DNA from: Sipunculus nudus
Taxonomy: Eukaryota > Annelida > Sipuncula > Golfingiida > Sipunculidae
Length of the DNA: 64,000 nt
Assembly (NCBI GenBank): GCA_026874595.1
Contig: CM049308.1
Coordinates: forward strand, 17,542,001 to 17,606,000
Reading direction: 5' to 3'
The position numbers and the translations under genes were made by a program. The notes under the pieces were generated by a model. It worked only from the letters and a program-made list of their open reading frames with translations. It was not told the DNA's origin and searched no databases. Positions 706 through 46,100 of this stretch are shown here, piece by piece. Every line of letters starts with the position of its first letter. Position 1 is the first letter of the stretch.

Positions 706-894
706 TTTGGTGCTATCTGTTGGATGGCCATATATTGTTAGTATATAAACACAGATATACCCGATGATATTGACATGATATTTGACTTTGTATCATGATA
801 TATCATGTACAGGTGAATTGTCACAGATCAAATCTAAATATAATGAAACTTGAACAAAAACAAATGTTTGGCCAATAACCTTTTCCTCTTACAG

Positions 895-3800
895 GACTGC
901 CTCAGTGATGTCACAATCAGACCCCGGGGATCTAGTCAAGGAATGCTGTCTCAGCTGGCCTTGAGAACCTACTGGTGTATCTCTCGGCAGCGTGTATGGG
1001 GTGTCCCTATTCCTGTGTTTTACCAGAAAGATACAGGGCAGCTATTATTAACAAAGTGAGAGGATCTCTTTGTACAAAAAGACTTTTTAGATAAAGGTGC
1101 ATTAATGACAGATTTAATATGTTTTAATGAAATAGTGTACCTGTTATTTTAATTTCTGTGTGTCAAGAATTATACATGTGTGTTGCCTCTTTGTTCCCAA
1201 AGGTTTCAAATTCGCGCTATTCATTAAAAGGAAATTATAACAAAAATAAAACCTTTATGAATAAGACGACACATCTGCTCATTTGAACATTCATTTATTC
1301 TATATCCTCAATGGTATCTCACGTATATTGTGCCTGTAGTGCTAATATTAGCACACATTGTATGTTATCCATAATTCAGAGATTGATTAATTAAATAATA
1401 TCAATTTTTGTGTATATCTGCCACTGTTCAGCATTCCCAGAGCTCCTTGTGCAATTGTTAGACTTTGCGTACACATGGGTTATTGATATAATAATGGTTA
1501 TGTACTTGTGTAAGTGACGGTCTGGTAAATCACTGAAATTAAACCCTCACTAAACAGTAAGATGTGTAAATTGTGAATATTTAACCTTGCAAATATAAAG
1601 CCGACCTAAGTATTCGTTCAGAAAAAAATTACATTAAAATATCACCATGATTGGCCATATGCAAAAAACAAACACTATCAACCAGTACTCATTGTATGCT
1701 GTCTTTTAAACATGCCATTAAAGTGTCATTTGCCAAATTAAATATAGCTAGAGGGGAGCCATTCAACCTAGATGATAGACTTAAAGGTCCAAATAGTTTG
1801 TGACAGAAAATTTGAAATTGTTATTTGTTTTAAAGAAAAGTTGTTTTAAAGATTGGGAAGTTTCTTAAATAAGACTGCTGGATAGGGGGTGATGAAACAG
1901 CAAAATCAGAGAGAATGAAATGAGTGAGAGTGAATGTACATAACAAGGTGTTTTATTCTGTATTATAGGGCCTCTGTAGACCACATACAACAACTAATAA
2001 AACAACATGGCTCAGACTGCTGGTGGACTCTCTCTCAAGATAAACTGCTTCCTAAAGAGGTCATCAAACAGGTATGTCAAGGTCACAGTTGTCACAACCC
2101 CAGTCAATGGCTGTCCTGAATTCATTATACTTCTATATAGACAGGGACTATACATTCTCTTAGTGAGGGCTCTGACCTCACTGCAATCCCACTCTAAAAT
2201 AAAAAAAAAACAGCACAAGACTGTATGTAACAATAAACAAGTGTATTAATGAACATTAAATATGAGAGCACATAGAAATGAACTTATCAGATACTGTGCC
2301 TTCTGTCTAGCTGCATCTATATAAACTTAAGTAACAAACAAATAGATAATTCATGTTCAAAGTATGTCCTGCAAGACATAAAAATAAGTGATCTGAGAAA
2401 GATAAGACCACAAAGTCCAATGCTGGTATGAGGTTTGTTTAGGAATGCATTTTAAACAAAACTTTTCATCCCAAACCTTCTGTCTTCCACGTGGCGCACC
2501 TGCCAATAGGGGAAGGTTCCTATTGATTTTGGGGTCATTAGGTCAAAGGTCAAGGTCACAGGGCCCATCCCTTGACAAATTAATTTATGGATGAAAACTC
2601 CAGTTTGGGTAGACAGGTTGGCTTCAAACTGATCAGAAGAACCATATTTTGAAAAAAAAAATCATAAACCTATCCTTATAGACAAATTCAGCTGAGCGTC
2701 GAGACCCTTTATGTCCCTAGTGTTTGCCAGGGTCACAATAAAAAAAAAACTCTCTTCAAGCCATGTATTTTACACTGCCATTTTGATTATGAGCTTTTAA
2801 AGTTACTAAATATTATGTTTCATCAAATCAGGGTAATTTTGGGAAAAAAAAACTGAATGAATAATTCCATTGTCATGTTAGATTCTGGTACATAGAACAT
2901 GCAAACTTCTGACATTCCTAAAGTTTTTACATTTGTGTCAAAGTGCTGTTGATCCTTGAGCTTTTTTATCTTATATATTTTATGCAGGTGAGAGTCATGA
3001 TATTTGTATTACAGTTATCTATAGTGTACATTAAAATAAACCTTTTTTTCCAGAGTGGATTCGACCCTGATGCTGAATATGTAAAAGGGACCGACATCTT
3101 TGATATCTGGTTTGATAGTGGATCCACATGGGCTCAAGTTCTAAAAGGTAAGGTTTATTTAGCAGATAACATATTTGTAAATAAATAAAAGAGAATAGAC
3201 CTATACTGATAGGAGGACAAAGAAAGTAATTCAACATTTTTGGAAGTATTCTATATGTTTCAGATTCCATGCCTGTGAGGAGTTCGCTAATATCTCAGTA
3301 GGACCATAATATAATGTAAACATGGAGCATGGTGTAACTGACACAACTTACAGAGTTACATTGGAACAGCATCAGAATATGATGTTAACATGGAGATTTC
3401 TTCATTTAAAATGTTGTGGTCATTATGCCATTATGTCATTATGTGGTCACAACCAGTATGCATTATATTATTACTGATACAAGTTACAGAGTTATATCTG
3501 CATTACTAACACAATTTACCGAGTGACGTGGATAAATGTTTTTAAAAGAGTTACATCCCTTTACATTGAATAACAAATGTTAAAAGCATCATTTTCTACA
3601 CCCTTAAATGTCAGGTGCAGAATGTGCCAAATAAAAATATTCCATCTATTAGAAAAAGAAACGTTTGGAAAGTGAGGTAGTTGCATTGTAATTTCTAAGT
3701 CTTCCACTAGGTTTCACCTTGTACAAAGGAAAATGCGGGATCAATAAAGGAATTAATGGATTTATCTGTATGCAAAAAATTACCAATATACCAGAAATGT

Positions 3801-6042
3801 AATAGTTTTTATCAGGAATCTTGACTGACTAATATTCTGAATTTTTTAGTCGTGTATCTCCACACAGGTGATTTAGACTATCAATCAGAAACACATGTTT
3901 ATGCCCAAACACAGTATAGATGCATTGGATATGCTTATAATTGTAATACAGTATTTATGTAGATGCATCATGATCACAAACATGGGTAAAGAGTTACAAT
4001 AATTATAACATTGATTTGTAATGTTATGCATTAATTCCAGTGTTTGTTTGTCATAGGATGATTTAATTCTTTCAGAATATAATGGTGAGGCAGACTTGTA
4101 CCTGGAGGGGCTGGACCAGTTTGGGGGATGGTTTCAGTCCTCTCTCCTTACCAGCGTGGCTGTGAATGATAAAGCACCTTACAGGTAAATGAACTAAAAA
4201 ACTATACATATTTACAGACGTGCTAAAGTCAGCCTAGATTTCATAATTGTATCCCCAGACACAGAATACTATGGCTTAGGCAAGGTTGCACTGCTGCCAT
4301 AGAGATTTCTTTCAGGGGAGATAACTCTAAAAATATTTTATAAAACTAGACATGTGCATAGAAATTTTGGCATGTTTATCCGTCTTGGATAGCTGTGTTG
4401 TATACCAGATAGGTTGCCTGTTTTTATATTATACATTGATGTACTTTTTCACAAAAGTGGATTGGTGTTTCGGCCTGAAATCTTGCATGGTGTATCCATC
4501 TCTAGATCTGTTTTTGGTGAAAATTGCAAAAATATGAGGAGTTAATTGGTATAACTGGTGCCACAAATTCTGAGTCATGTCATGTCAGGAACATTCCATG
4601 CCTTACTTTTTTACCCATGCCTCTTTGATGAGGCTTGATAGTTGCTTGACAACTACCCGTATTCTAGTTAAATTGAGGTCATGATCTTGAATATTTCCTT
4701 ATTTTGTGAAAATCACACAAAGTCTTAAATATCTCAATAAATGATGAATGGATTGGTCCAAAAATCAAATTGACTGAAGATCTTTGACCGCTTTCTCAGT
4801 TTCTCTTCAGTGGAAGACAGTTTGCACCACCTTCTGACCTTTTCTAGTTTTTCACACCTTTTAATACACCTTTTGTGTAGTGGACCTTTTGGTAAAATAA
4901 AGTGTAGATATTTCAAAATCAGATTTTTTGAGAAGACCCAAGTGTTTTGTATGGGCAGGTAATAGACCTGCTCATTACTGGACAAATTAATAAGCAATCT
5001 GCTCAATGGTCAGTAAATTCTTAAACAGTGTTAGTGTCTTCTAAACCCAGCCAATTTAATTTGAAGTAATTATGGGCCCTGCTTCAACGGAACGGGGGAC
5101 ATTGATTTGGGATTTTTCTGTCCTTCTGTTTGTCTGTCATTCTGTTTGTCTGGCTGTCATGTTTTCGTTTCCCTGCAATAACTTTCCTAAACGTTATCCA
5201 ATTTCATTCAATTTGGGTCAGTGTTTGATCTCATGCTCATGGTTTAGGTTTTTCTGTCTGATAAGATAATAATACAATAGGATCTTTCCTTGTTTATTTG
5301 ATGAATCAGCTCATTTAGTGTCACTAATCGCCATCAGGTGTCACTAGCGGAGGACATAAATTCCTTGAATTTGCTTGTTTATTTATTTTAGAGTATAATT
5401 TAAAGAATATACTCAGCTTAAGGCTAACTCTACTGTACAAAACACCGCTGGAGTGTGAGTGCTCTAGTTGACATGACCTTTAATACTCAACAGAAGACTA
5501 CAAACTGTACAAACCACATTCTACCCCTTGAACTGTGTGGACTCAAGTTGACTTTGTCTTATTGCTCAGCTGAAGACTACCCCTGTGAGCCCAGCAGTGA
5601 CACCGCAGTTGATGGTCTCAGACACCCACAGGTTTTGTTTACACAACATTTACATAATAAAGGTTGTAAAAACAATCCCTCTGATGTACTGATATGACAG
5701 GCTAAGATATCATTTGAGAAACAAATATTTTCCCTGGGAAGAAATGGTAGGAAGAAAGTATTTCTTCCTTGCTTTCCTTTCCCTCTGGGAAGATTGTGTC
5801 AACCCCATGACACAACCCTGATTGTGTCAAGGGTATAGGTTTCTTGTTGGTTATCATTGGTGTAGGTCTCTCCTGGTTCATGGATTTGCTATGGATGAAG
5901 AAGGAAGAAAGATGTCAAAATCCCTTGGCAACGTGGTTGATCCTGAATCTGTGATCCTTGGTACCAAAGTGAGTTATTGATCAAGGTCTCATGACTGATT
6001 ATTGGTGTAACTCTAAATGAAAGTAAGTCCTAATAATTCTGG

Positions 6043-6110
<68 letters not shown>

Positions 6111-9100
6111 TAAAACCCTGGGCTCCAAACACCCTTCTGGGGCGGACACCCCTCCTAACAGACAGTTTTGGGGCCGACCAAGCTTTTTTCTCTTTTAAGA
6201 ATCCCTTTGGGGCGGACACTCGCTATTAAGGACAACCAGCACTTTTTGTCGCCCAATTGCTAAAATCACCCCGGCTATCCGACATCCAAGAGGCCGCCCT
6301 GATCAGTGTCTGCAGAAATACCTTGAAATTACAAATATGGTCTGTTTCTGGTACGCCTTATATAAATTAAATGTTCTTATCATTTAGGCATATATCGTCA
6401 AGACTATATGACCTGGGCTAGTTTTACTCAATTTACCTTATTTTTCAGCTGGATCATTTAAAGATATTTATCCTTTTATCCATAGCAATGCCCGCAAAAT
6501 GACAGAATTCACAGGTTTTCTAATGAGCTGAGCTTCCAGTGAAGCTACATATTCATTCTGAAGTCAGGCCACATTATTCAAACATAGGCCCAGGAGCGAG
6601 GACAATGTTGTATCTGTTACACATCCGGACGATAAAAGTCACGGGTCATGACCTCTCTTCCGGAATGAGGGCTCAGCTGGTCTTTAGATCAACGACGATC
6701 AAAGACATTTATAATGCACTTTTAAGGCAACTTCTGCGTTCAGTCATAGTTCAAAATGATTAACTCACAATAACACACTTGGACGAACATTGTCATGCGT
6801 CATGACCTCTCACCTTGGCTAGGAGCCAATCCCCAATCCTGTAACATTTACATCACGGAAATGAGTCCCACCTACCAGTCATAAGGCTCATATGATATCA
6901 TACATTTATTCATTATGTTTGATAATGATCACGTGGGTTTTTTAACAGAACTTGAACGAGATGAAAGAAATGAATTTATTTCATAATCGATTCTTTTAAT
7001 ATGACAAAAGAGTAAGTAATTAAGAATTTTACGGACCTAGTGCAGGATTCCTACATTGAGACGCCAAATAGTCCAGTCGATGTCGATCAGTGTTAGAATA
7101 TTATTTTCTCACAAGTAATGCCGATAATGTTCCAGTTTATAATAAAGCCTCATTTTAAGATAAGAATAAAACACAGCAACTGGTTGCAATGAATTTTATT
7201 CACGTATAACATATATGTAAGATCAAATATTAAATAAAAAGTACCGGCATTCATGGTTGATTTAGTCCCATACTTGGTCTCAACCGGACCTCATGGGCCT
7301 GACCCCCTCTGGGGCAGACACCCCGCTATAACGGACAAATTGTTGGGTCCCGTGACTGTCCACCCCAGAGGGATTTCACTGTACATGAATAAATTGTATC
7401 ACCTATCATAAAGAGGTATGCAGAATACACTGCACAGTATGCAGCATATTGGATGCTGCATCACTGATCTGTTAAGTCGTGATTGTTACGATGTGGAATG
7501 TAATGTTTTATATAATTAGCATCTTGAATGATGTAGATACCAAGTGATTGGCATTGGTTAAAGGGGCCTATTCTGATATCTGACCTCTATTGATGGAAGA
7601 TAATGCCTTGTACCTTTTATAAAAATAGGCCAGAAGACATTGATCCCACCATGTACATGCTGTTCTTTGTACTATTTATATTTATCTGTTTATAACATTA
7701 TAACATGTTCAAAAACATTGAGCAAAGGCATACTGGTGAAGCAGAGTTTTGCTTAGTGCATTTTGCAATTAGGGACCTTTTAAATGCTGCAGGTCATTAA
7801 AATGTACACAGAGATAACCAGAAGTCACAAAAATTCTTTAGAAAAGACAGGTGAAAAGTTGGCTTTAAACAAACCTTTTAAAACAGTTTAATATAAGTAG
7901 AAGTCACATTGGGAAGACTGAATCATAAAACTCTTTAGACATCTTCAGGTATCTCTTACCAAACTTAGAGATAAAGTATTAATATTAATCCAAAAGTACA
8001 TACTGAACACAAAGAGATTTTAGATGAAATGCTTAGTGATCAGTCAATTAATCTAAGATTATGATCAATACAAATTGTTTATATTTCCCTCCTTTTGTCT
8101 TCAGTGTGTGTGTGTTTTGTGAAACATACTTTCTGTATTATGTAAATGACCAGTTTTTTTTAGCTCAACTGACTGTAAGTCATCTGAGCTTTAGCAATCA
8201 CTCTTTGTCCGTCGTCTGTCCGGTCATCTGGCTGTCTGTCCGTTAACAGGGCACAAATCGTAACCGCTGGACCTAGAATCTTCTTACTTGACATCCAGAG
8301 AGGTCTATGAAAATTCTCCTTTGAAAATTCTCCTTGTTACCCATATTCACCCAGCTATGAGGCTCCCAACTAACCCCCCCCCCCCCCCCAGAATAATGGA
8401 AAATTTCATACAAAAGCTCAAGTATCTGAACAACTAACGCATTGATCACCATGATTCTTTGCATGGATATTGATCATGGAGAGTTTCATCAGTTTCTGCA
8501 GACAGGTAGCGCCATCTTTATTTTTTTCAATTTTTTACGATTTTTTTTTTTCTATTTTTGAGACCTTTAAAGATGTGGTGATCTGTTAACAGGGCACAAA
8601 TCGTAACCGCTGGACCTAGAATCTCCTTGCTTGACATCCAGTGAGATCTTTGAAAAATTTCCTTGGAAACCGGAAATTAAGTCTTTGTTACCCATATTCT
8701 TCCAGCTATGGGGCTCCAAAGTACCCCAAGAATAATGGCAAATTTCATAGAAAAGTTCAAGTATTTGAACAACTAATGAATTGATCACCATGATTCTTTG
8801 CATGAATATTGATCATGGAAAGTTTCATCAGTTTCTGTAGACAGGTAGCGCCATCTTTATTTTTTCAATTTTTTACAATTTTTTTTCTCTATTTTAGAGA
8901 CCTTTAAAGATGTTGTCATCTGTTAACAGGGCACAAATCGTAACCACTGGACCAAGAATCTTCTAACTTGACATCCGGTGAAGTCCATGAAAAATCTCCT
9001 TGGCAACCTGAATTAAGTCTCACTTACTCATATTCTTCCAGCTATGGGGCTCTGAAGTATTCCCCAGGATAACGGAAAATTTCATAGAAAAGCTCAAGTA

Positions 9101-12100
9101 TCTGAACAACTAATGCATTGATCACCATGATTCTTTGCATGGATATTGATCATGGAGAGTTTCATCAGTTTCTGCAGACAGGTAGAGCCACCTGTATTTT
9201 TTAGCTCAGCTGACTGTAAGTCATCTGAGCTATAGTGATCACTCTTTATCCGTGGGCCGTCTGGCCATCATGCCGTCTGTCCGTTAACAAGGCACAAATC
9301 GTAACCACTGGACCTGGAATTTTCTTACTTTACATCCAGAGAGGTCCATGAAAAATCTTCTTGGAAACCTGAAATTAGGTCTCTGTTACCCATATTCTTT
9401 GAGCTATTGCACTCCAAAGTACAGCTCAGAATAATGGAAAATTTGATACAAAAGCTGAAGTATCTGAACAACTAATGCAGAGATCACCATAATTGTTTGT
9501 ATGGAAATTGATCATGGAGTGTTTCATCAGTTTCTGCAGCCTGGTGGCACCACATATATTTGTTGGGGCTTTTTTTCGAATTTTTTTTCTCTATTTTTGA
9601 GACCTTTTAAGATATGAACATCTGTTAACATGGCATAAAATCATAACAACTGGACCTAGAATCTTCATTCTTTTCACACAGGGAGACCCATGAAAAATCT
9701 CCATGGAAACCTGAAATTAGGTCTCTGTTACCCATATCCATTAAGCTGTATGGCTCCAAAATACTCCCCAGAATAATGAAAAATTTGATACAAAAACTCC
9801 AGTATCTCAATAACTACAACACTGATGCTCATGATTTTTTGGCATACATATTGATCATGACATGTTCCATCAGTTTTAGCAGACTGGGTGTGCCACCTCT
9901 ATTTTTTTTCAAATTTTTACCAATTAATTTCTCTATTTTTGTGATCTTTAAAGATGTGGTTATCTGTCAACAGGGTACAAATTGTAACAACTGGACCTAG
10001 AATCGTCATTCTTGTCATGCAAGGTTGCCCATGAAAAGTGTCTATGGAAACCTGAAATTAGGTCTCTGTTACCCATATCCTCCAAGCTATAGGACTCCAA
10101 AGTATCCCTCAGAATAATGGAAAATTTAATACAAAAGCTGAAGTATCCAAACAACTAATCCAGAGACCACCATGCTTCTTTGCATGGATATTGACCATAT
10201 AGTATTTTTATTAGTTTCTGCAGACTGGTGGAGCCACCTGTATTTTTTTTAAAGTTTACGCATTTTTTCCCTATTTTTGAGATATCTTAATACAGACACA
10301 ATCTCAGCCTGTTGGTTAATCTCTTTGATGCTTCAGTTGAATGGTTATATACTACCATTCAGATGATAAAATTTCCTTTTGCAAATCTCTTCCCAGTCAG
10401 CTGAGCGTCATGACCCATTGGTCACTTGTTTTATGTAATGATTATTTTTTGAGACCTTTAAAGATGCGGTAATCTGTTAACAGGGCACAAATCATATTGA
10501 TTGGACTTAAAATCTTTCAACTTGACATCCTTGAAGGTCCATGAAAAGTCTCCAAGGAAACCTGAATTAGGTCTCTCTTACCCATACCATTTGAGCTGTT
10601 GCGCTCAAAGTGCCCTCAAAACAATTAAAAGTTTTAAACAAAAGCAGTGCACAAATCATAACCATTGGACCTAGAATCTTCTGATTTTACATCCAGTGAG
10701 GTCCACGATAAGTCTCCTTGCAAACTTGAAATTATAGGTGTCTATAACTCATATTTTCCAATTTATGCGGCATGTTTGAGGACCCCAGAAATAATGCAAA
10801 ATACACACACATTGCGAGATTCCTCAGGAATTGGTGAATAGATTGTATTAAAATTTGGTGTGCTTATGCGTCTTAATGAACTTAAGCATGAATGATGGTG
10901 CCACCTCCATTATCTTAATTAGTTCCCTATGCAAGGACATATTGTCAACAAGTAAGTCGGCTGAGCGTCATGACCCATGGGTCACTTGTTTTTTTTTTTT
11001 AAATGCTTGTTTGACTGTGATTATTGTTTTGATTATAGGGTATTGTATATGTTTTGTATTTATTATAAATTATGTATTTAAATGCATCTTTTTTGCAGAC
11101 AGGAGAACATGTTTCATTAGCCATTATGGCTACTATGTAATCCGGTTAAAATAAATATGTTTAAATTAAACTAATTGGGCCACATTAGCTACACCTCATA
11201 CAGGAAGTTACAACTGCATCTGTCACAGGTAGTTTCCAGGTATTCAGTTCCAGAATGCTTTAAATATTTTGAATCCTCCAGTAAAGGTTAATTACTTTCA
11301 GTCACCAGAAAAAGATAAAAAAATTATGATTATGGCAACAAATTTTATCAGTATATCAATTTATTGTTTTCATTATTGGGCCCAGACCAGTAATAGATCT
11401 GATGTTAATATACAGCCTTGCTCATCATATATTAAGACAGTGTCTTTGTTTGACAGGAGCAGCCAGGTCATGGTGCTGACGTATTGCGCTGGTGGGCGGC
11501 CCGAGCTCACCTGGACTCTAAGGTTCATATTGGTCCCCAGGTGTTAGAACAGTGTAAGGAACAGGTGTTCAAGGTAAAAACTCGTGTTTATAAAACAAAT
11601 ATAGTAAACCACATTTTAATTGACCTATTCATGAAATCTATATGACCTGAATGGCATATTTATTCAATGAATAATCATAAGCATAATGGACTTATGAGCA
11701 GCCAATCAGGTGTCTGTAAACATTGTAAAGTGTCATTCAACCAACAAAAACAAAATTTGCATAATTTGACAGAGCTCTGTCAAACAGAACAAGTGTAATC
11801 TGTAACAGTACCCATGTCAGCATGTTTTCCGGGGTATTTTGTCATACAAAGAAGACAGTATAAAAAGTTCAAGGCTAAAGGTTGCAGGAGCCATTCCTCC
11901 AACTACAGAGTAAATAATAATATCTTACCTGGCACATAATTCATTTGAGACCAATATTCTAAAATATTGCAAGACTTCACAGTGACTACGATACATTCAA
12001 TAATGGAGGACAGTGATACCAGATGATGAAGTCAGTCATTGGGACGTCATCTGCATCGACCTTTGTGACATCATTATTATGTTGTAAGCAGCTCTCGCTA

Positions 12101-15100
12101 TCATGGGCATGGAAGACCTTCTGTGTAGGAGTGTTTTGGGGCTCATATATAAAAATTAGGTTAAAGGGGAGAGTATTTGGGCTGTGGTGGATAGGTCAGT
12201 TAGTGCTGCACTGGCCACCTAAAGTTGGATCTTTACCAGGAGGCCACCCCATATTCATCAGCTATTTTAGCGAACCTGTGAGCTTATGCGTTGGTGTGGC
12301 GTCGTCCGGCGTCTGTCATCCGTCGTCTGTCATCCGTCGTCTGTACGTTAACCCATACTATCTTGAAAGCAGCAAGAGTTAGCATCACGAAATTTTATGC
12401 AAAAATTAGTCATCTAAAAAACTCTATAAGATTTTGCTAATTTTTTGGCTATCTGCATTTTCTTAGATTTTATAGGGAAAAAGCTAAAAAAGCTTTAAAA
12501 ATTTTCTTCTCAGAAACTGTTTGGCCAAATTGTCAAATATTTCACAGAAAGATTTCTGGAAAAATCTTTCTAAGTTTGTTCGAATGGTTAAAGTTTGTTT
12601 TTTTTGGTCGAGTTACAGGAAGTTAGTCATCTGTCCAAAAAAGCATACTAAAATTACAATCTCAGAAACGGCTTTAGCTACCATCACCAAATTTTATGCC
12701 AATGTTGGTCACATGAGTTATATCTGAAATTGAGGTGTAGGTGATGCCACCTGCATCGGCCTTTTTTTTGTTTTTAAGACCCTTGATCTAGTCATACCAA
12801 ATTCTTCTACAAGCCCAAATGGTAGTTTCTTGCTGTTAGACAGATACATTTACAATTAAAATAAGTTATTCACATGTGAATCTTGATTCACTCCAATATC
12901 TGATATACTTCCCTTCCTTATGAGCACTTTCAAAGTATTTCCTGTTAAGTCTTATGAGTAAAGTCAAATATTGATAATCATGATTGTTTAACTTACATAA
13001 AGGATCACGACTGTCAAGTTCACCTGTTTGAATGAATTTCACAGTGATTTCAGTGATTTCACTGATAATATTTTTCAGGTCAGGAAATCTCTACGCTATC
13101 TGCTAGGAAATCTATATGACTTTGATAACACCAGCAACCAGGTAGAACCAGCAGATATGCTGCCACAAGATCAGTACATGCTTCATCTTCTAGCTCAGTT
13201 CATCTCCCAGGTAAATGTTACCAGTACATGCTTCATCTTCTAGTTCAGTTCATCTCCCAGGTAAATGTTACCAGTACATGCTTCATCTTCTAGTTCAGTT
13301 CATCTCCCAGGTAAATGTTATCAGTACATGCTTCATCTTCTAGCTCAATTAATCTCCAGGGTAAATGTTATCAGTATATGCTTCATCTTCTAGTTCAGTT
13401 CATCTCCGAGGTAAATGTTATCAGTACATGCTTCATCTTCTAGGTCAGTTCATCTCCCAGGTAAATGTTATCAGTACATGCTTCATTTTCTAGGTCAGTT
13501 CATCTCCCAGGTAAATGTTACCAGTACATGCTTCATCTTCTAGGTCAGTTCATCTCCCAGGTAAATGTTATCAGTACATGCTTCATCTTCTAGGTCAGTT
13601 CATCTCCCAGGTAAATGTTACCAGTACATGCTTCATCTTCTTGCTCAGTTCATCTCCCAGGTAAATGTTATCAGTACATGCTTCATCTTCTAGGTCAGTT
13701 CATCTCCCAGGTAAATGTTATCAGTACATGCTTCATCTTCTAGGTCAGTTCATCTCCCAGGTAAATGTTACCAGTACATGCTTCATCTTCTTGCTCAGTT
13801 CATCTCCCAGGTAAATGTTATCAGTACATGCTTCATCTTCTGGCTTAGTTCATCTCCCAGGTAAATGTTACCAGTACATGCTTCATCTTCTAGTTCAGTT
13901 CATCTACCAGGTAAATGTTATCAGTACATGCTTCATCTTGTAGGTTATTTCATCCTTGAGGTAAATGTTATCAGTTCATGCTTCTCTTGTAGCTTAATTA
14001 ATCTCTGGGTAAATGTTATCAGTACATGCTTCATCTTCTTGCTCAGTTCATCTCCCAGGTAAATGTTATCAGTACATGCTTCATCTTCTAAGTCAGTTCA
14101 TCTTCCTGGTAAATGTTATCAAATCATGTTTCATGTAATCAGTACATGCTTCATCATCTTGCTTAGTTCATGAATGTTATCAACATTTTTATTACCTATA
14201 ATATTTATTATTGAAATTTTTATTCATCATCCCAATTCATATATTAATGTTCAGTGTAAATATATATTGAATCCAGCTCACAGTTACATTATCTAACTGA
14301 CTCTGATTAAGTTGCAGGCTTAAGCTTTAATAAAATAAGTACTGCTTGTATGATATGCCTTTCTTTTTATATGAATGTCCAAGGGCCACTTGTAAATCAT
14401 TTTTTTTCTGATGCTCTAGAAGTAAAATTAAAAGAACACTTAAGCTTTTTAATGATTAATGTCTGTTCAAATAAAAAAGGGTATTTGATATGGTACTGAA
14501 AGGCATTTAAATGTTACTATGTCTTTCCAGGTTACATCCAGTTATGAAGAATTTAATTACGCTAGAGTTTTAATCCTTGCAGAAAAATTCATCAACGCTC
14601 ATGTTTCAAGTTTTTACTGCCATATCACCAAAGACAGGTAAAGGTCATTGATTGTACTCATGGCCATGGCTGAGCTTTTCATTTAGATAACCATGCATGC
14701 ACCAGTATTACAAAATCATTGAATTTTATATTGTAATATACTGAACAACAAACTTGACGGCTAGAAGTTGAGTGCTTTCAAGAGAAATTTATCTGTGAGA
14801 CCAAAGAACAAGCAAGAATACAAAATTAAAGACAAATGGACAAACATACTGACAAACTGACACAAAGTGGAAGACAAGTGACTGGACGATATCATGAAGA
14901 AGGTACAAATAAAGAAAATGAGCTATAGATTGAGGACAACTGACAAAGGGACTGACAAACTGAAGGAGTGGAAGACAGTCGACTAGATCATTTCATAAAG
15001 AGGACAAGGAGGAAGAAAATGAGCCATAGTTTGTGAAGATAAGACTAATATTGACAAAGCTATGAGGGATATAAGTTTTGAACTTGTTTTGATGTTCCTG

Positions 15101-18100
15101 TCCTTGAACTTTGGCATATTTAAAAAATACATATGCAGCTTTGAGAAATTGTTCCGCTATATGATAGGTGTAAGATACAAAGTGATGATGTATGTCAGAG
15201 GCAAGAACAGGCTAGCAGGTGAAATTGAGGACAACTGACAAACAAACAGATATACTAACACAGAGTGGAAGACATGTAACTCGATTTTTTTTATAATGAA
15301 GACAGAGGAAGAAAATGAGCCATAGTTTGTGAAGAGAGGACCAATATTGACAAATTTATGAGGGAAATAAGATTTAAATTTTTTTTTAACTTTGACCTTG
15401 AACTTTGAACTTTTAACAAAATACACTTGGAGCTTCCAGAAATTGTTCAGATTGTGATATAGGTAAGTTACAAAGTGATCCCTGTAGAATGCTATATGTA
15501 AGACACAAGAACCAGCAAGCGGGCAGAATTTGGGACAACTGACAAACAGACAGACATTCTGACAAAGTGACACAAAGTTCAGACCAGATGTTAGACCAGA
15601 ATATTGAGAAGATACAAACAAAGAAAATGAGCCAAAGTGTGTGAAAATATGACCAATATTGACAAAGTTATGATGAAAATAAAATGTTGACATTTTTCGA
15701 TGACCTTGACCTTTGACCTATATTGACCAAAAACAAGAGGCCTCCAGGACTTTTGATTGTCATTCAACTGTGTAAGTTTGAAAGTGAATGTTGCAAAATT
15801 GTGGCCAGTAGAGGTGGGACAAACAAACACAAACATATATGCAACTGAACAACTTGTTTGCAGAAATCTTTGATTTTTCTGCAAGCAATAAAAATAAAAT
15901 AGCATTGTTACATGTGGAGGATTACTGCCATCAGACAATATGTGGGTCATATAGCTGCAGAATTTGTTCTACACCGAAGGTTCTGCTGTGGGGTGTAAGG
16001 TGCCCTGTACATTGTGTAAACATTTTTTGGTAAATATATAGTTTTAATGTTGGGATGAGTGTTATTTGATATTGGCAGACAAATGTGTTTCAGTGTTACT
16101 GTGATATTTTCTTAATGCAACATTGTTTATGTGCCTTGTCTTGTCCTGTGATTTGAACAGCCATGTTATAAAATTGAAAATTGTTGTGGTTATAACATAG
16201 ATTTAGGTGGCTTTTACACCTTCAGTACTGGTCATGAATAGTGAATAACGGTAGCGGTAGGCTTCTTCAAAGGAATGCACTATTATTTTGTATTCAATCA
16301 TATTCCTTTTATATTCAAGATGTTATTGTTAGAGCCTGTCCTGTGTCACATTAGCTTTACTACATTACTACCGGTAGTTATTTTTTTTTTAAGTGCAGGT
16401 CTGCTTTATGAGGCCTTAACTGTTTCTTTGTGAGGCTTTTACAGTTCCCTTTTATCTGTAGCCATTAGTTTATATATTTTAGGTTGTACTGCGAGGTTCC
16501 TGACAGCTTTGCTCGTCGATCAGCACAGACAGTTATTTATCACCTTCTTCACAATGTCACCATCATCCTCGCCCCAATCATCCCCCACCTGACTGAAGAG
16601 GTCTTCAGCTTCATCACGCACAAAGGTTTGTATCAGCATTCCTCATGTTATGGAACAACTACCAACTGGTGGTTGGCCATTAGGTTGTTGCATGAATAGA
16701 GCAAACTGCTTTGAATAATTTAGTATAAAGACAACATCTTAATTTTCATTTAAAATTAAGTTGATTAATTGATTAGTAATTTGGCAAGACTTTATTTTAT
16801 TTCTCACACCACATACTTCAAATGCTTTATTTTAGTAGCATCTTACAGATGGATTTCTGGTGAATTGGATGGTTATAAAAGAAGCAATGGGTAATTTATG
16901 TAAACAATAGCGCCATTTCATGGATACAGGAAATTGAGGGGGGGGGGGGGGGGGTCAGGAGGGAAGTATCATCACAGACACTTTTGCACTCAAGTGTACC
17001 ATTGTAAAAGTGTAATTGTTACAAAGGGCTAGCACATTATTATATTGAAACATATCCTCCTTTTCTACAATTAGTTTCAAATTAATTATATCAATTAATA
17101 ATTAATTATATTAACTAAAAATATCCCCCTGTTGGTGCTTTATAAACTTGAATAATAAAATTTATGTTCTTCTGTTGGTAAAACCAATACACGATGACTG
17201 AACATTTCCTTTCAATACAGACAATGTAGTTGAATTAAGAAATTTGACAAAACAAAACTTTTGCAGATGTTGACAGTATTTTCAAGACAAGCTGGTGTAA
17301 GCAGGTTGATAAGTGGACAGCGCCAGACTTGGAAGAAATCTTTGACTTGACTTTCATCTTGAAAGATGCCTTTTATGGTACCATTGGAACAGAGAACCCA
17401 CTGGAGTTTGACTTAGTCTTCAGTTTACAGGACCATGCCTTCAAAAGGATAAAGGTAAAACAATCTATGTACATTATACTTATATTGCACCTATGGGGCT
17501 CAGTATGTCTCAAGAACTTATTACATATCATATGTTTTCAATAAAGCAAAAATAAATATTATTCTTTTGAGTTAAAAAGGACCAAAAACAATATTTTCCC
17601 AGTGTTTATGTATTGTATTGAAGTTTGTTTTTCAGATATGCTTTGAAAAGTATCTATATTTGCCATGAATTATGGGAATCTTAGAAAACTTGGATACTAA
17701 TGAAATTTTGTGTTGACTGGGTATGGAAATATCTATATTGATCTAAAATCTTTCTAGTGGTCTTTCAATTAAAGCACAGAGGTTTGGAGTTGGTACTCAA
17801 TGCAGTCCTGCCATTTTCCCCTTTTACCTTCTCAGGTCAGAAATTTTTTTTGCCTGCATACTATACTTTTTAGCTCAGCTGACTGTAAGTCATCTGAGCT
17901 ATAGCGATCACTCTTTGTCTGTCCGGCCGTCTGTCTGTTAACAGGGCACAAATCGTAACCACTGGACTGAGAACCTTGTAACTTGGGATTCTGAGAGGTC
18001 CATGAAAATTCTCCTTGGAAACCAGAAATTAGGTCTCTGTTACCCATATCCTTCGAGCTATGGGGCCCCAAAGTACCCCCCAGAAAAGTAAAAAATTTCA

Positions 18101-21100
18101 TACAAAAACTTCAATATCTCATTAACTACTTCACTGATGGTCATGATTTTTGGCATACATATTGATCATGAGATGTTCCATCACTTCCTGCAGACTGGTA
18201 GCGCCACCTGTATTTTTCGAATTTTTACGAATTTTTTTCTCTATTTTTGAGACCTTTAAAAATGTGAACATCTGTTAACAAGGCACAAATCGTAAAGACT
18301 GGACCTAGAATCTTAATTCTTGACACACTGAGAGGTCCATGAAAAATCTCCTTGGAAACCAGAAATTAGGTCTCTGTTACCCATATTCTTCAAGCTATGG
18401 GGCCCCAAAGTACCCCCAAGAATAGTAAAAAATTTCATACAAAAACTTCAATATCTCAATAACTACATCACTGATGGTCATGATTTTTGGCATACATATT
18501 GATCATGAGAAGTTCCATCAGTTCCTGTAGACTGGTGGCGCCACCTTTATTGTTTGATTTTTTTTTACAATTTTTTCCTCTATTTTTGAGACCTTTAAGG
18601 ATGCTGTCATCTGTTACCGTGGCACAAATCATAACGACTGGACCTAGAATCTTCATTCTCAACACACTGAGAGACCTATGAAAAGTCTCCTTGGAAACCA
18701 GAAATTAGGTCTCTGTTACCCATATCCTTCGAGCTATGGGGCCCCAAAGTACCCCCCAGAATAGTCAAAAGTTTCATTCAAAAATGATTTTTGGCATACG
18801 TATTGATCATGGAGTGTTTCATAAAGACTGGACCTAGAATCTTCATTCTTGACACACAGGGAGACCCATGAAAAGTCTCCATGGAATCCTGAAATAAGGT
18901 CTCTGTTACCCATATTCTTTTAGCTGTATGACACCAAAATACCCCCCCCCCCCCCCCCCAGAATAATGGAAAATTTGATGCAAAAACTGCAGTATCTCAA
19001 TAACTACAACACGATTTTTCTGAAACTTACACCAATTATCAGGTCACATGTGAATTGGTGCCTAACCAGTTTGCGTTGACCTCTGACCTTTCCTGTCTGC
19101 CCAGTATCCATTTGTGCGTCTGTTTCATCACATAAACCCTCATATCTCAGGAGCCGTTTGACCGATCAGGAAATAAAATTTATACAAATGTAGCCCTTGG
19201 ATAGCTTTATAACATACACAATAAATGGTGGTGCCACCTGTAACCCTGTTTGCACAGTGTCCATCTGTTCATCTGCCTTGCGTTAAAATCACTCATATCT
19301 CTGCAGTCAATGACTAATTCACCTGAAATCTGGTATGCTTATACATCCTGGATAGCTTTCTTGATTTTATGACAGGTGGCACCACCTATATTCACGTTCA
19401 CGCTGCAGACATCCAAGCTCATAACTCGGGAACCGTTTGACCTATCAGGAAATAAAATTTATACAAATGTAGCCCTTGGATAGCTTCAAAACATACACAA
19501 AAAATGGTGGTGCCACCTGTAACCATGTTTGCACAGTGTCCATCTGTTCATCTGCCTTGGGTTAAAATCACTCATATCTCTGCAGTGAATTGACTAATTC
19601 TCCTGAAATTCAGCATGCGTATACATCCTGGATAGCTTTCTTGATTTTATGACAGGTGGCGCCACCTTCATTCACGTTCACGCTGATGACATCCAAGCTC
19701 ATATCTCAGGAACCGTTTGACCGATCAGGAAATAAAATTTATACAAATGTAGCCCTTGGATAGCTTTATAACATACACAAAAAATGGTGGCGCCACCTGT
19801 AACCATGTTTGCACAGTGTCCATCTGTTCATCTGCCTTGGGTTAAAATCACTCATATCTCTGCAGTGAATTGACTAATTCACCTGAAATTCAGCATGCGT
19901 ATACATCCTGGATAGCTTTCTTGATTTTATGACAGGTGGCGCCACCTACATTCACGTTCACGCTGATGACATCCAAGCTCATATCTCAGGAACCGTTTGA
20001 CCGATCAGGAAATAAAATTTATACAAATGTAGCCTTTGGATAGTTTTATAACATACACAAAAAATGGTGGCGCCACCTGTAACCATGTTTGCACAGTGTC
20101 CATCTGTTCATCTGCCTTGGGTTAAAATCACTCATATCTCTGCAGTGAATTTACTAATTCTCCTGAAATTCGGCATGCATATACATCCTGGATAGCTTTC
20201 TTGATTTTATGACAGGTGGCTCTACCTACACTATAGTTTACGCTGCAGACATCCAAGCTCATATCTCGGGAACCGTTTGACTGATTGGGCCAAAATTTTG
20301 CATGTGTATAGATCTCACATAGGTCTTTATCATACACAAAACTGTAGGGGCCACCTGCAACCATTTTTGCACATTTTGCACAGCGTCTGTCTGTTTGTCT
20401 GCTGAGGCCTAAAAATCACTCATTTCTCTGTAGTGGTTTGACATAACTGCCTAAAATTTTGCAGGTTTATACATCCTGGAAAGCTTTCTTGATTTTATGA
20501 CAGGTGGCGCCACCTAAATTCTAGTTAACGCTGCACTCATCCAAGCTCATATCTCAGGAATTGTTTGACTAATTGGGCCAAAATTGTGTATGTGTTTAGA
20601 TCTCACATAGATCTTTATCATACACAAAACTGGAGGGGCCACCTGCAACCATTTTTGCACAGCGTCTGTCTGTTTGTCTGCCGTGGGCTATAATCATTAA
20701 TACACATGTAGTGGTTTGACTTTTCTGCCTAAAATTTTGCATATGTATACAACTTGAACAGCTTTCTGGATTTGTAGTAGCTGGCACAACCTACATACAC
20801 ATTCAGGCTGCAGACATTCATGCTAATATGCAACATACCTCACTCTATTTCCCCTTGCCACTCAATCCATGCCTCACTTCACCCGTTCCACTCTGATTTT
20901 GGCGGATACACATAGTCACTTGTGGGCTACCCATGTTCTAGTTTTTAAAGTTTACACATTTTTTCTCTATTTATAGATATATTAATACAGACTTAATCTT
21001 GGCCTGTAGGTTAATCTGTTTAATGCTTCAGTTGAATGAGTATATACTACCATTCTGGTGATAAAATTTCCTTTTGTGAATCTCTTCCCAGTCAGCTGAG

Positions 21101-31100: not shown

Positions 31101-34100
31101 ATGCAGCATCAGGCTTTATCACTAATTAATATATATCATATAATAACTGACAGACTCCTTTGTTCATGATGACCAAGTGGCAGGTCCTTTCTGAGTAAAA
31201 ATATGTGCAAGCAGAGGACTGCAAAGGATTCTTAGATAGCTTAAAACAGGGTCTGACCTCTAGATCTTTGTTCCACAGTACAGCGTACTCCCAGCAGCAG
31301 TTGGCCAGCAGTATGTCTACATCCAGGCTGTAGGGAAGCTTGTGTTGTACTCGGAGTAGCTGATCTGAAACAGAGATAGAACATTAAATACCTGGCTTTT
31401 GTGTGATAAATAAACATAGGACATAGGATACATAGGACTTCTGTTATCAGAACTGTTACAACCAGCCAGATATGGATCTTTATAATAGCATTGGTAAAAC
31501 GAGATCACACTGATTTATGACTGTGCCTCTGTGATATATTATGAATAAACAAAGGCATCAGCTCAGAGAATCTGCAAAAAATAAACTAACACAGGATATG
31601 AACTTTTAACAGATTCTACCTCTGACAAAAAAAAACATATAGTTCACTATAGTAAATGGTATACAAAACAGGCAGGAAGGTTCTGTAATATAAATAAATC
31701 AGTTATTACACAGATAAATAAAGATTGAATTCACTTTACCCTTTATGTCTTATATATGGTAAGCAGCTAATTATTTTGAAAATTTAAAACATGGGATAAT
31801 TTCAGGTTAACTACACAGAGAAATTAATTAGCAATATAAGCATGATCTCAAGTATCTAAATCCACTTTAGAAATACCTATGACTTGGTTTGGTGTTTCTG
31901 ACTGTGACGGTTTCTCTGTAGTTTCGGCCTCTGTGTCCGTCGTTTCACTGTCCTGGGTGAAGGTCATGTGATACAGCCTCGCCGCAGGTACAGCCTGACT
32001 TGCCACCCACTTAGCAACCAGTTCAGCAAAAACTCCTGAAGATAATATCAGAGGTTTAATGTAATGTTAAATCCATGCAACAATTTAAAGTACTTATATC
32101 AAATTTAAGAATCATGATCAAAAGTTAAAAGGTCATTTGTTCCACCTTTCATCAAGTAAAATACAAATTACTCATCTATGTGGTATAATTTATAATGTCA
32201 ATAAATGTAATATGATATCAATAAAAGTTTGCCGCTGGGTTTTCATATATGGTTGTCTTTCAATATATACTGCCTTATTACTGCCTAAGGCCTACCTGGT
32301 GACCTGCTTGTGGATGATCTTTTTTGACACCTGTAGGTTTTCTGCACTATTAGACCAACAAGCCGACACTGAAGCAGATATCCACCATGTGAAATCCATG
32401 TTACAGCCCTTACATCATGCAGGATATCACATGTGGGAGCCACATTGGGGGATATGCTTGCAAGACCTACACTGCTTCACGTCCCAATATGTACAAAGTT
32501 GAGAATTATCATGAACAAGTAGCATTTTTCCCTACAAGCTGGATATTTCAGCTGACAAGTGTCATACATGACTCATTCACTGGCTTGGATTGAACTAGGT
32601 CCCTTCAGCCCTAAATGTCCAGTTTCTTAACTGCTGGGTCACATCCTATCACAAAGGAGGTTGGACCATTTTTTTTATTCCAGAGGAAGTATTTACGTTG
32701 GCTTTTTGTTTGCAGGGATTTCAAATTCTCAATATTCATGAATGGTACATTATTGGGAAAATAAACCTCTGTGAATAAGACACCACATCTACACTGGTAA
32801 ACAATTTATTTTAACAGCCTCTATGGCATCTCATGAATTTTGTGATGGTAGCATTAATTTAAGCATACATTTTATGTTATTCATAAATCAAAGATTGATA
32901 ATTTAAATAAAATTAATTCTTTTATATATTTGCCCGTATTGCATGAAGAATTACCACCAGTTCAAGGTTCCCTTGGGTCCTCATACTGTTGTTGAGATTT
33001 TGCATGCATATTAGGTAACTGATATGGTAAATGTTATGGCTAATGGTTATGTACATTGTGAAAGTTACTGTATGGTATTTTAAGAAAATGAAACCATTAT
33101 GAAACACTGAAGGATTGTGAATATTTATTCATGGTAATATGAAGCCAAGCACAGTAATTAATAATCACCTCTGCCTCCCTCCATGACATGTCTGACTGAC
33201 ACCACGGCTGGCTCTGTGTCTGCAGCCTTCAGGTTCATGTCCACATCCTGAGGCCTCATCTTCAGCAGACACTGGAGCTGTAGCAGGTCCTCCAGTTGCT
33301 TGATCAGCAGTGTCCACTGTGAGCCATCCAGCGTCACCGTCTCCCACTCACTGCTCGAGTCTGAACTTGACGTCAGCTCAGTGTCTGCCTGTATAATGCA
33401 AACAAGTAGATATATACAATCAAGTGTTTACTTGGAAAAGATTAAAGCGTCATTTATAATCAGATAATACAACACATTTAAGACAGTTGTTAAAAGTTAA
33501 CACCAGGTGGGGCTGCTATGTAGGTGAGGTATTATGTATTAATCATTAAAGTGATTTTATGCACACACAAAGTAGCCTGTCACTTCCCAACGTGTACAGT
33601 CAGTGATGTAGCACAAAAAGTACCAACACATATTATATACTTGTCACTTCAATGATGGAGATTGAGATCTGAAAAAGTTTAAAGCATACTTCACATGAAT
33701 GACACAATCAGTTACTGAAGGGAAAAAAATGGATATTTTACCTTATGACCATTGAGTGTTTCTATGGCAACAGTTCTTCCAACAAGTGCTGCCAGGAGAG
33801 CAGCCAGGATGTTCTGGGATTGAAAACAGTGTGATCGTAAAAGCTGCCACCAGGGGGACACCTTGCTGTTTTGCATGCAGACATCTGCAGCATCTATAGA
33901 AGAGACAAATAAAAGCGCTGATCTAACTACTCAACAACAGTGCTGACTTGTTCACATATAGACTGGTTTACACATACAGTCTGGCCACACAAAGTCGGTG
34001 CTGTCAGTGGCTCTGATCTAGTAACAGTGGCCATGTGCAAATTTGTCCAATCAAGTAACCATGCTAACATAGCATGTCTAATCAAATATCAGTGGGCACA

Positions 34101-43100: not shown

Positions 43101-46100
43101 CATCTCAACAAATAACTTATTGCTCATAATGCGTGCCTGATTATACTTAGAAAAGCTCACTGCTAAAATTAAAATTTATTGCATCAACAGTATTTATGGG
43201 GTTATACCATTGACGGCCATTCCACTACACATAATCAGCTTTTGGAAGTAGTTAAGGTTAAAAACAATTTTGTGTAATACCAAGTATATGTATATATAAC
43301 AGCATTTTGCTCCTCTGACGTAAGTAAGACTACTGAGATGTGAGACTGTATTGCCCTCTTATGCACTGTAAATGTTGATGAGGATGCAATTATATTCCTC
43401 ATTACTGACAATGCCTCACAACCTACAAGTATACTATCACTTCAAATAAACCAGACATGCTTGTGTACTTTCTACCAACACCTACCATGTGAGAAGAAGA
43501 TTCCATTTTGACTCGGCATGTTTGTAAATGTCCATGCATGTCTGTTGATTTTCTGACTGCATATAAGCATGTCTCAAATGATAAGCAATTGAAGCAAGTC
43601 ATGCAAAGAAGAAGAAATGAGATACCACCGAGATGTGATTTACACTTAAGTTTGTGCATTCACATGTATTATTTAATCTTTTTTCCTAGCCTAACATTTA
43701 GATCATTGCTTGTTTACAGCATTTATAGCTGCAACAGGATGGATTACCGATGCAGTGTAAGTTTCTCCTGTGACTGAGTATGGCCTATCAGTAATACATT
43801 AATGTCTACTCAGTTGTGTGTTCACCAACAGTAGGTAGAAATCTCTGTTAAGTGAACAAAAAAGATTCTTACCTGTTTCCATGCCACTGTCTTTCAGAGT
43901 CACCTTGAGCCGCTTTAGTAAATGCATGTCTCTCACTCTCTTACTGTTCTTGTCACTGTTTATGAATATAAGATAAAAATAAAGAATTTAACATATTTAA
44001 CACTAAATACAGTGGACACTGTATGAAAGACCACCTGTGAATTAAGACCACTTTTGGCCAGTCCCGGGGGGGGGGGGGGGGGGTTGTCTTATTACACTGG
44101 ATTCACTGTTTTTATGTATGTATGTATAGCCCATTTAAATGAGGAAATAATTTTACAAAATGAATGGACAGTTATGATTTATCACCCATGCAGAACATAG
44201 CAATATGTTCAAGATGTAAGACAATACACATTCTTATCATAACAAGGCCTACAGGCCTAATGCGAACCTGTGCAAAGTTTGGGAGTATGAATGGAGGTTT
44301 ATTTTTAAAATTTAATATTGATCCTTTTAAGTTCTGCATATCTACCTTAGTCATTATGATTTCAGCAAAATGGACATTTCGGACTAGGACATTTTAAAAC
44401 TAGAATATGGGTAGTCAACAAGTGACTGTGTGTATCCGCAGAAATCAGAGTGGGACGGGTGAAGTGAGGCATGGATTAAGTGGCAAGGGGAATAGAGTGA
44501 GGTGTATTGCATATTAGCATGGATGTCTGCAGTGTAAATGGGAATGTAGGTGGTGCCACCTGTCATAAAATCGAGAAAATTGTCTAGGATGTATAAACCT
44601 GCAAAATTTCAGGTGGATAAGTCAGACCACTGCTGAGATATGAGTGATTTTATCCCAAGGCAGATGAACAGATGGACGGTGTTCGTAAGTGGTTGCAGGT
44701 GGTGCCACCAGTTTTGCTTATGATGAAGAGCTCTGTGAGATCTATAGACATGCAAAATTTTGGCCCAATCGGTCAAACGGTTCCCAAGATATTTGCTTGG
44801 ATGTCTGCAGAGTAAACATGAATGTAGGTGGCGCCACCTGTCATAAAATCAAGAAACCTGTCCAGGATGTATAAACTTGCAAAATTTCAGGTGGATAAGT
44901 CAAACCACTTCTGAGATATGAGTGATTTTATCCCAAGGCAGATGAACAGATGGACGCTGTGCATAAGTGGTTGCAGGTGACACCACAGGTTTTGCCTATG
45001 ATGAAGAGCTATGTGAGATCTATAGACATGCAAAATTTTGGCCCAATCGGTCAAACAGTTCCCGAGATATGAGCTTGGATGTCTGCAGAGTAAACGTGAA
45101 TGTAAGTGGCGCCACCTGTCATAAAATCGAGAAAGCTCTCCAGGATGTATAAACCAGCAAAATTTCAGGTGGATAAGTCAAACCACTGCTGAGATATGAG
45201 TGATATTATCCAAAGGCAGATGAACAGATGGACGCTGTGCATAGATGGCTGCAGGTGGCACCACCATTTTTAGTGTATGTTATAAAGCAATCAAAGGGCT
45301 ACATTTGTGCAAAATTTTTAGCCTGATCCGTCAAACGGTTCTCGAGATATGCGGGTTTATGTGTGGAAACAGACGCACAAATAGACGCTGGGCAGCGAGG
45401 AAAGGTCAGAGGTCAACCAAAAATGAGGGCGCAGCAGTTCACATGTGACCTGATGATAAAACCCAATTCGCTTAAAATGCAAACCAATTTTTTTCAAACA
45501 GTTGAAAGATACAGTTCCAATAATCTGGGAATTCTGCATCTAAACATTGTGTCTAGACATCTAGACGCTATGTCTAGACGTCTAGACACATTGTCTTGAC
45601 ACCCCCCCCCCAGAGTCAGGTCAGTTGCCATGGTGATGTCTGGACCCCACCTGTTTGTACTGAGTGACCTCTTGACTTGGCTGCTGAAACTCAGTATGTT
45701 GTCAAATCTGTTTTCAAATACAGAGAGCCTTTTTCAATTGGCTACAATGTTTTTTTAAAACTGTATTTACCCAATCTATTCTTATAAAACTGGCAGAACC
45801 CTACCATAGAATAATTCTTGTAAAGTTTAAATCAATCAGCTTAACAATTTCATCATAAATCAGTGTATAAGCTAGAAGAGTTTAAAATTACATTTTCGCT
45901 TGTAAAAAAACACATCAATGTAGGTGGCGCCACCAATACCTCAAAATCAGATATGACATATGTGACAAACATTCGTACAAAATTTGGTGATTATAGCTCT
46001 AGCCGTTTCTGATATTTAAATTTTAGTGTGCTTTTTTGGACAGTTGACTAAGTTCAACCTCCTGTAACTCGGCCAAAAATCTCCAAACTTGAACCATTTG

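Follow-up and report, generated by a model that had tools for sequence, protein, structure and literature searches.

A minisatellite at the 5' splice site of exon 7 in the mitochondrial-type isoleucyl-tRNA synthetase gene of Sipunculus nudus

The window analysed here, a stretch of 64,000 nucleotides from contig CM049308.1 of Sipunculus nudus, contains on its + strand nine exons of an isoleucyl-tRNA synthetase (IleRS). These exons follow each other in order from about 889 to 16625 and were identified in searches whose queries were three bacterial ileS proteins, followed by the peptide encoded in the window itself; all exon ends except that of exon 7 were assigned from reading-frame continuity. 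Judged by this organization, the gene is apparently an intact IleRS. The features surrounding its seventh exon are as follows, with a slash marking the boundary between exon and intron.

13079..13210, + strand: coding exon 7 of the mitochondrial-type IleRS, 132 nt long and in phase 0 at either end, identified by tblastn with bacterial IleRS
13208..13216, + strand: authentic donor CAG/GTAAAT, the sole donor of 19 with an open frame into exon 8, co-linear with a solved IleRS
13170..14117, + strand: 19 repeat units, 18 of them 50 bp long and one 48 bp; the authentic exon end falls within unit 1
13258..14114, + strand: 18 decoy donors with their GT at 13261 to 14109; 13 are exact CAG/GTAAAT, the others carry GAG (two), AGG, TGG and CTG
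13241..13243, + strand: in-frame TAG, reached from each of the 18 alternative donors and likewise if the intron is retained
13522..13841, + strand: repeated three-unit (150-bp) block, 13522-13691 being identical to 13672-13841
14118..14184, + strand: degenerate tail of two truncated, donor-less unit remnants; its 3' end is GAATGTTATCA, the presumed original start of the intron
14531..14637, + strand: exon 8, the next IleRS exon, 107 nt, with the donor CAG/GTAAAG

Exon 7, which encodes 44 residues, is bordered by the acceptor ttttcag ending at 13078 and by a donor at 13211, and the following intron 7 extends over 1,320 nt (13211-14530). If joined, exons 7 and 8 encode a peptide of 79 residues that aligns gapless across the junction with a bacterial IleRS of solved structure (query 1-78, residues 649-726 of the target; phmmer E 6.8e-11). 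The same peptide matches Anticodon_1, a domain that begins in exon 7, and TIGR00392 ileS, in the latter case far under the cut-off for the whole protein, as is normal for a fragment. Together with the nine ordered exons, these matches uphold the identity of the exon as part of an IleRS proposed in a preliminary description of the locus, whereas the name IARS2 used there, a sound choice and the usual one when an animal IleRS is of mitochondrial type, is one that we infer from comparison with bacterial proteins. Other tandem arrays in the window include two with a similar 337-bp unit at 8242-10248 and 17991-18784, located about 8 kb apart with the first residing within an IleRS intron, and arrays of 278-280 bp at 19139-20829 and 44511-45271.

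A protein search of the organism's own genome assembly returned 34 matches, nine of which correspond to the exons in the window and the other 25 to open frames with 26-42% identity on contigs C61-C115. A processed copy of the gene that could have recorded past splicing was rejected, as there is no recent retrocopy among the 34 matches. An intronless IleRS frame of 1050 residues recurs 11 times (on C61, C62, C66, C69, C71, C72, C75, twice on C89, C90 and C91) and is accompanied at a distance of 3.6-3.8 kb, on the opposite strand, by a frame of 495-937 residues with a weak match to IleRS (~29%). The two copies on C89 are separated by 2,049,773 bases, as though the circular genome of a bacterium (about 2.05 Mb), either symbiont or contaminant, were represented redundantly in the assembly. 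A single pattern-based scan across genome contigs gave six matches for the 1050-residue frame, only 36-42% identical, from Patescibacteria, Ignavibacteria, Bacteroidetes, Porphyromonas and an uncultured bacterium. An additional open frame resembling IleRS, at C115:55761-56784, is 42% identical to the gene in the window over about 252 residues and contains no introns there.

Within exon 7 begins a tandem array, to which Tandem Repeats Finder assigns the range 13170-14121, a period of 50, 19.1 copies, 92% matches, 0% indels (rounded) and a score of 1561, and whose degenerate tail reaches about 14184. These head-to-tail copies of a unit within the range of 10-100 bp constitute a minisatellite, in agreement with the preliminary description. 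Unit 1 combines 41 nt of exon (13170-13210) with 9 nt of intron (13211-13219). Its earlier definition as the last 40 bases of the exon plus the first 10 bases of the intron is an equivalent phasing, because ATCA-like letters flank the breakpoint on either side. Among the 19 units there are 14 different sequences, with the most altered being units 16, 17 and 19 and the tail, all at the 3' end, though not unit 18. Since the segment 13522-13691 is repeated identically, the array has grown by blocks, and the repeated three-unit block suggests multi-unit copying and an unstable array. The mean pairwise difference among the 17 full-length decoy units amounts to 7.4%, and given this divergence the array has probably persisted for some time, an estimate that the rate of homogenisation may distort.

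When exon and array were used together to search the own genome at the DNA level, in a procedure that skips very common words, six matches were obtained, all at this locus, so that the array was found at a single genomic place. We consider it most likely to be a junction-seeded minisatellite. What is new about it is that a minisatellite, or AGGT tandem duplication, is located on a 5' splice junction that presumably functions. No minisatellite spanning a 5' splice junction was found in titles and the beginnings of abstracts of the open-licence literature searched with a few wordings, and none across such a junction is described in the available parts of PMC12783039 and PMC3549977. Published tandem repeats in a first intron resemble the array in having monomers inside a gene and a block structure. 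Here, in contrast, the unit begins in a coding exon and includes its donor, while a repeated junction is not stated in the accessible portions of that report.

As a consequence of its composition, the array displays 19 GGTAAATGTTA donors in register, spaced by 50 nt apart from the one 48-nt unit; an unrelated GGTAAATGTTA is found outside the array at 33027. The string GTAAATGTT is kept in all 19 units, although it also served to locate them, and the two remnants in the tail lack the donor. The preliminary description had counted about 18 decoy donors repeated every 50 bases, and 18 are indeed present, all containing GTAAAT and 13 of them the full CAG/GTAAAT, which brings the number of exact sites to 14 of 19 if the authentic one is counted. 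In the window this nonamer occurs 15 times on the + strand (14 in the array and one at another exon end) and not once on the - strand, compared to 0.4 copies expected per strand of the window from base composition. The lone + copy outside the array belongs to a different IleRS exon (GT at 4185), where reading-frame continuity indicates its use as a donor. The duplex energy of the exact decoys with U1 equals that of the true donor (-8.3), a value that is also shared by three of the eight other assigned IleRS donors, including the one with its GT at 4185. Within exon 7, a strong-looking internal site CAG/GTAGAA is located at 13142, 69 nt upstream of the true donor, with a U1 duplex energy of -8.0.

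We have considered RNA structure as a feature distinguishing the first donor. A hairpin of 5 bp with a loop of three, GGTAA-ATG-TTACC (or TTATC), can form over the donor at 13210-13222 and in each unit, with energies of -3.3 kcal/mol for the ACC and -0.7 for the ATC form, both of which are mixed among units. This hairpin was rejected as a factor favouring the first donor, as the true donor carries the stronger form. We likewise rejected a structure that would hide the decoys, as the folding energy of the array (-134.3) is weaker than that of 30 dinucleotide shuffles (mean -163.4, s.d. 7.0; z of the array +4.1). Local unpaired probabilities are low at all 19 donors (0.000-0.024), and the first is not separated from the others.

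The donors are distinguished by the reading frames they would generate. If donor 1 is joined to exon 8, the frame is open across 239 nt; if any of donors 2-19 is joined instead, which would give exons of 182 nt upward, a stop is encountered at codon 55 from the start of the exon (18/18). The claim that later donors read into the TAG at 13241-13243 therefore holds for every one of them. This stop precedes two or more further exon ends (14637 and 16625), and it would be competent for nonsense-mediated decay (NMD) by the usual 50-55 nt rule because exons 8 and 9 end in donors. The array thus has the composition expected for unproductive splicing, with each of 18 alternative sites leading to a premature stop upstream of later junctions. 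It follows from the sequence that a straightforward functional mRNA would require the first donor, by virtue of its frame and its co-linearity with IleRS. The preliminary description had gone further and left decay as the only alternative to this donor, which is too strong, because a second splice could remove the kept units exactly, and transcripts from wrong donors could in principle be re-spliced scarlessly. What it had overlooked is that the majority of unit boundaries read CAG/GTAAAT and hence resemble an acceptor as well as a donor.

The sequence variation among units was inspected for selection acting on the decoys. In 17 full-length decoys, with unit 1, the 48-bp unit and the two donor-less tail remnants omitted from the column counts, the donor nonamer is changed in 5 of 153 cells compared to 33 of 697 in the rest of the unit (Fisher P 0.52). 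GTAAAT is invariant in 17/17 of these decoys, and 10 of the 50 six-column windows of the unit are equally clean, its own window counted. Similarly, 30 of 50 nine-column windows contain as many change events as the donor or fewer, and 20 of 50 if variant cells are counted. Neither selection on the decoys nor their excess conservation compared to the rest of the unit is seen in these 17 copies. As the copies are non-independent and the donor string was used to locate them, such conservation statistics are weak in both directions and establish neither that decoys are purged nor that they are preserved. If read in the frame of the exon, decoys 10, 13 and 18 encode the peptide of exon 7 while the other 15 of 18 change it, with decoys 14 and 17 carrying a stop. 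The exon unit itself may be held by coding selection.

The ends of the array contain a possible trace of its origin. At the start of the unit (13170) the exon bears the letters ATCA (caagATCAgtacatg), and past the last remnant the intron reads gttATCAaca (gttATCAacattttt). A duplication between these two ATCA copies would give exactly a 50-bp unit, and the array was perhaps born at this 4-bp microhomology, although a match of four bases could be due to chance and the ancestral sequence is deduced from the remnant. The units hold 9 nt of intron and are followed by unique intron and a real acceptor, which suggests that the intron is older than the duplication.

The account that we consider probable is that of a junction minisatellite with intronic passenger copies, where the first donor is normally used and the copy number is close to neutral for coding. 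With respect to origin, first-donor choice and neutrality, we infer the following course. A short duplication across the junction between exon 7 and intron 7 would have seeded the 50-bp minisatellite, which would have been enlarged by copying of unit blocks, with copies 2-19 becoming intronic passengers. The first donor would normally be used because it is the sole one that ends the acceptor-defined exon at an ordinary 132 nt, and its earliest departure from the polymerase would provide another reason for its choice. U1 may bind to many copies, with the surplus being discarded; according to Hodson (2012), surplus U1 is reportedly removed from alternative sites during the E-to-A transition. Changes in copy number would be approximately neutral for coding, as after an in-register crossover a donor still stands behind an exon end. 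This neutrality would be incomplete because the crossover also brings in variant units, and among the 18 decoys 15 alter the peptide. The array would then be tolerated since the first donor is normally chosen and a change in copy number leaves exon end and donor in place, and occasional use of later donors would produce targets of NMD, expected as noise.

In classic work with duplicated donors, the intron-proximal of equal competing sites is often favoured. Such a preference, which speaks against the account above, would let wrong donors win at this locus and break the gene, and either the proximal rule fails here or correction occurs. The array shares with these duplicated constructs the presence of competing donors in cis. 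Natural alternative 5' splice sites, as described in the available parts of PMC2423196 and PMC5585400, show the same competition and share the risk that a wrong choice shifts the frame and invites NMD. Compared to either, the array is natural, nineteen-fold, and copies 41 nt of upstream exon each time. According to the accessible part of PMC5585400, the choice of donors is pushed in intron-proximal direction by SRSF1 and in intron-distal direction by hnRNP A1.

Correction would be inherent in a different reading, which we regard as improbable, where the boundaries TTCATCTCCCAG/GTAAAT act as acceptor and donor of a self-correcting splice ladder. Units kept after use of a wrong donor would be removed by a second splice: the true donor, spliced into any CAG of the array, would regenerate the same exon end, and after use of donor k the kept k-1 units would start with the authentic GT and end in CAG in 13 of 18 cases. 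In a form that we find quite unlikely, any donor could be used first, with the extra units lost in later rounds and the exon end restored, leaving the gene indifferent to array length. If true, the repeated AGGT units would constitute a built-in error-correction device of splicing. The acceptor-then-donor arrangement is that of recursive splice sites, whose RS-exons span about 50 nt, and in the parts available of PMC8605326 ratchet points similarly combine an acceptor-like AG with a donor and a next donor about 50 nt on. The pyrimidine fraction upstream of the 18 decoy boundaries (0.59-0.76) is comparable to that of four real acceptors (0.65-0.71), namely those of exons 4, 7, 8 and 9 with exact positions, with exons 2 and 5, defined by homology starts only, left out. 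Despite their AG/GT and this acceptor-like pyrimidine content, most units contain other AGs (CTAG, TCAG) less than 20 nt upstream of the CAG, which 5 of 18 decoys lack altogether. The units are short and tandemly repeated, and the intron of 1.3 kb is unlike the long introns that host most known ratchet points.

A related precedent is intron gain by tandem duplication of AGGT segments, which are spliced as introns in ATP2A1/ATP2A2 and in fission-yeast 24-bp repeats, and in which, according to the available part of PMC4974935, AG/GT copies bound a removable, coding-neutral piece. In the array, the AGGT of the duplicated segment equally provides new GT and AG ends. Unlike the few exonic copies in the published cases, there are 19 copies of 50 bp, and the segment straddles a real exon-intron junction in a probably pre-existing intron.

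The decoys might instead compete with the true donor, with the TAG-bearing fraction of transcripts degraded and copy number thereby tuning IleRS output, as the preliminary description had envisaged. The same early stop behind all 18 alternative donors and the equal U1 pairing of the 13 identical decoys are in line with such competition, and the duplicated 41 nt of exon would bring along any local enhancer. As the decoys lack excess conservation, and any retained intron commonly has a stop soon past the exon end, we think this improbable as well. With 19 U1 sites, the array might also serve as a U1 platform that strengthens exon definition or shields polyadenylation-like signals in the intron, of which AATAAA at 14329 and 14470 and ATTAAA at 14427 lie downstream of the array; base composition predicts 0.7 AATAAA and 1.0 ATTAAA in the intron, making these signals not notable and such a role very unlikely. 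Finally, an assembly artefact, with really one or two units in the genome, is hardly credible for a 1-kb array of 14 different sequences among 19 units inside contig C3 of a contiguous 1.43-Gb, 153-contig assembly.

Most studies of how a spliceosome selects one of several equivalent donors have relied on engineered duplications with two or a few sites. The locus presents a natural experiment on this choice in the gene of a mitochondrial protein-building enzyme, where one correct donor precedes a series of false ones that are almost identical to it. In this presumably working gene, 14 identical donors recur in a 50-nt register, each with a very similar exon flank, leaving position as the main distinguishing factor. 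Whichever the outcome, the locus would thus be a useful natural test of donor choice.
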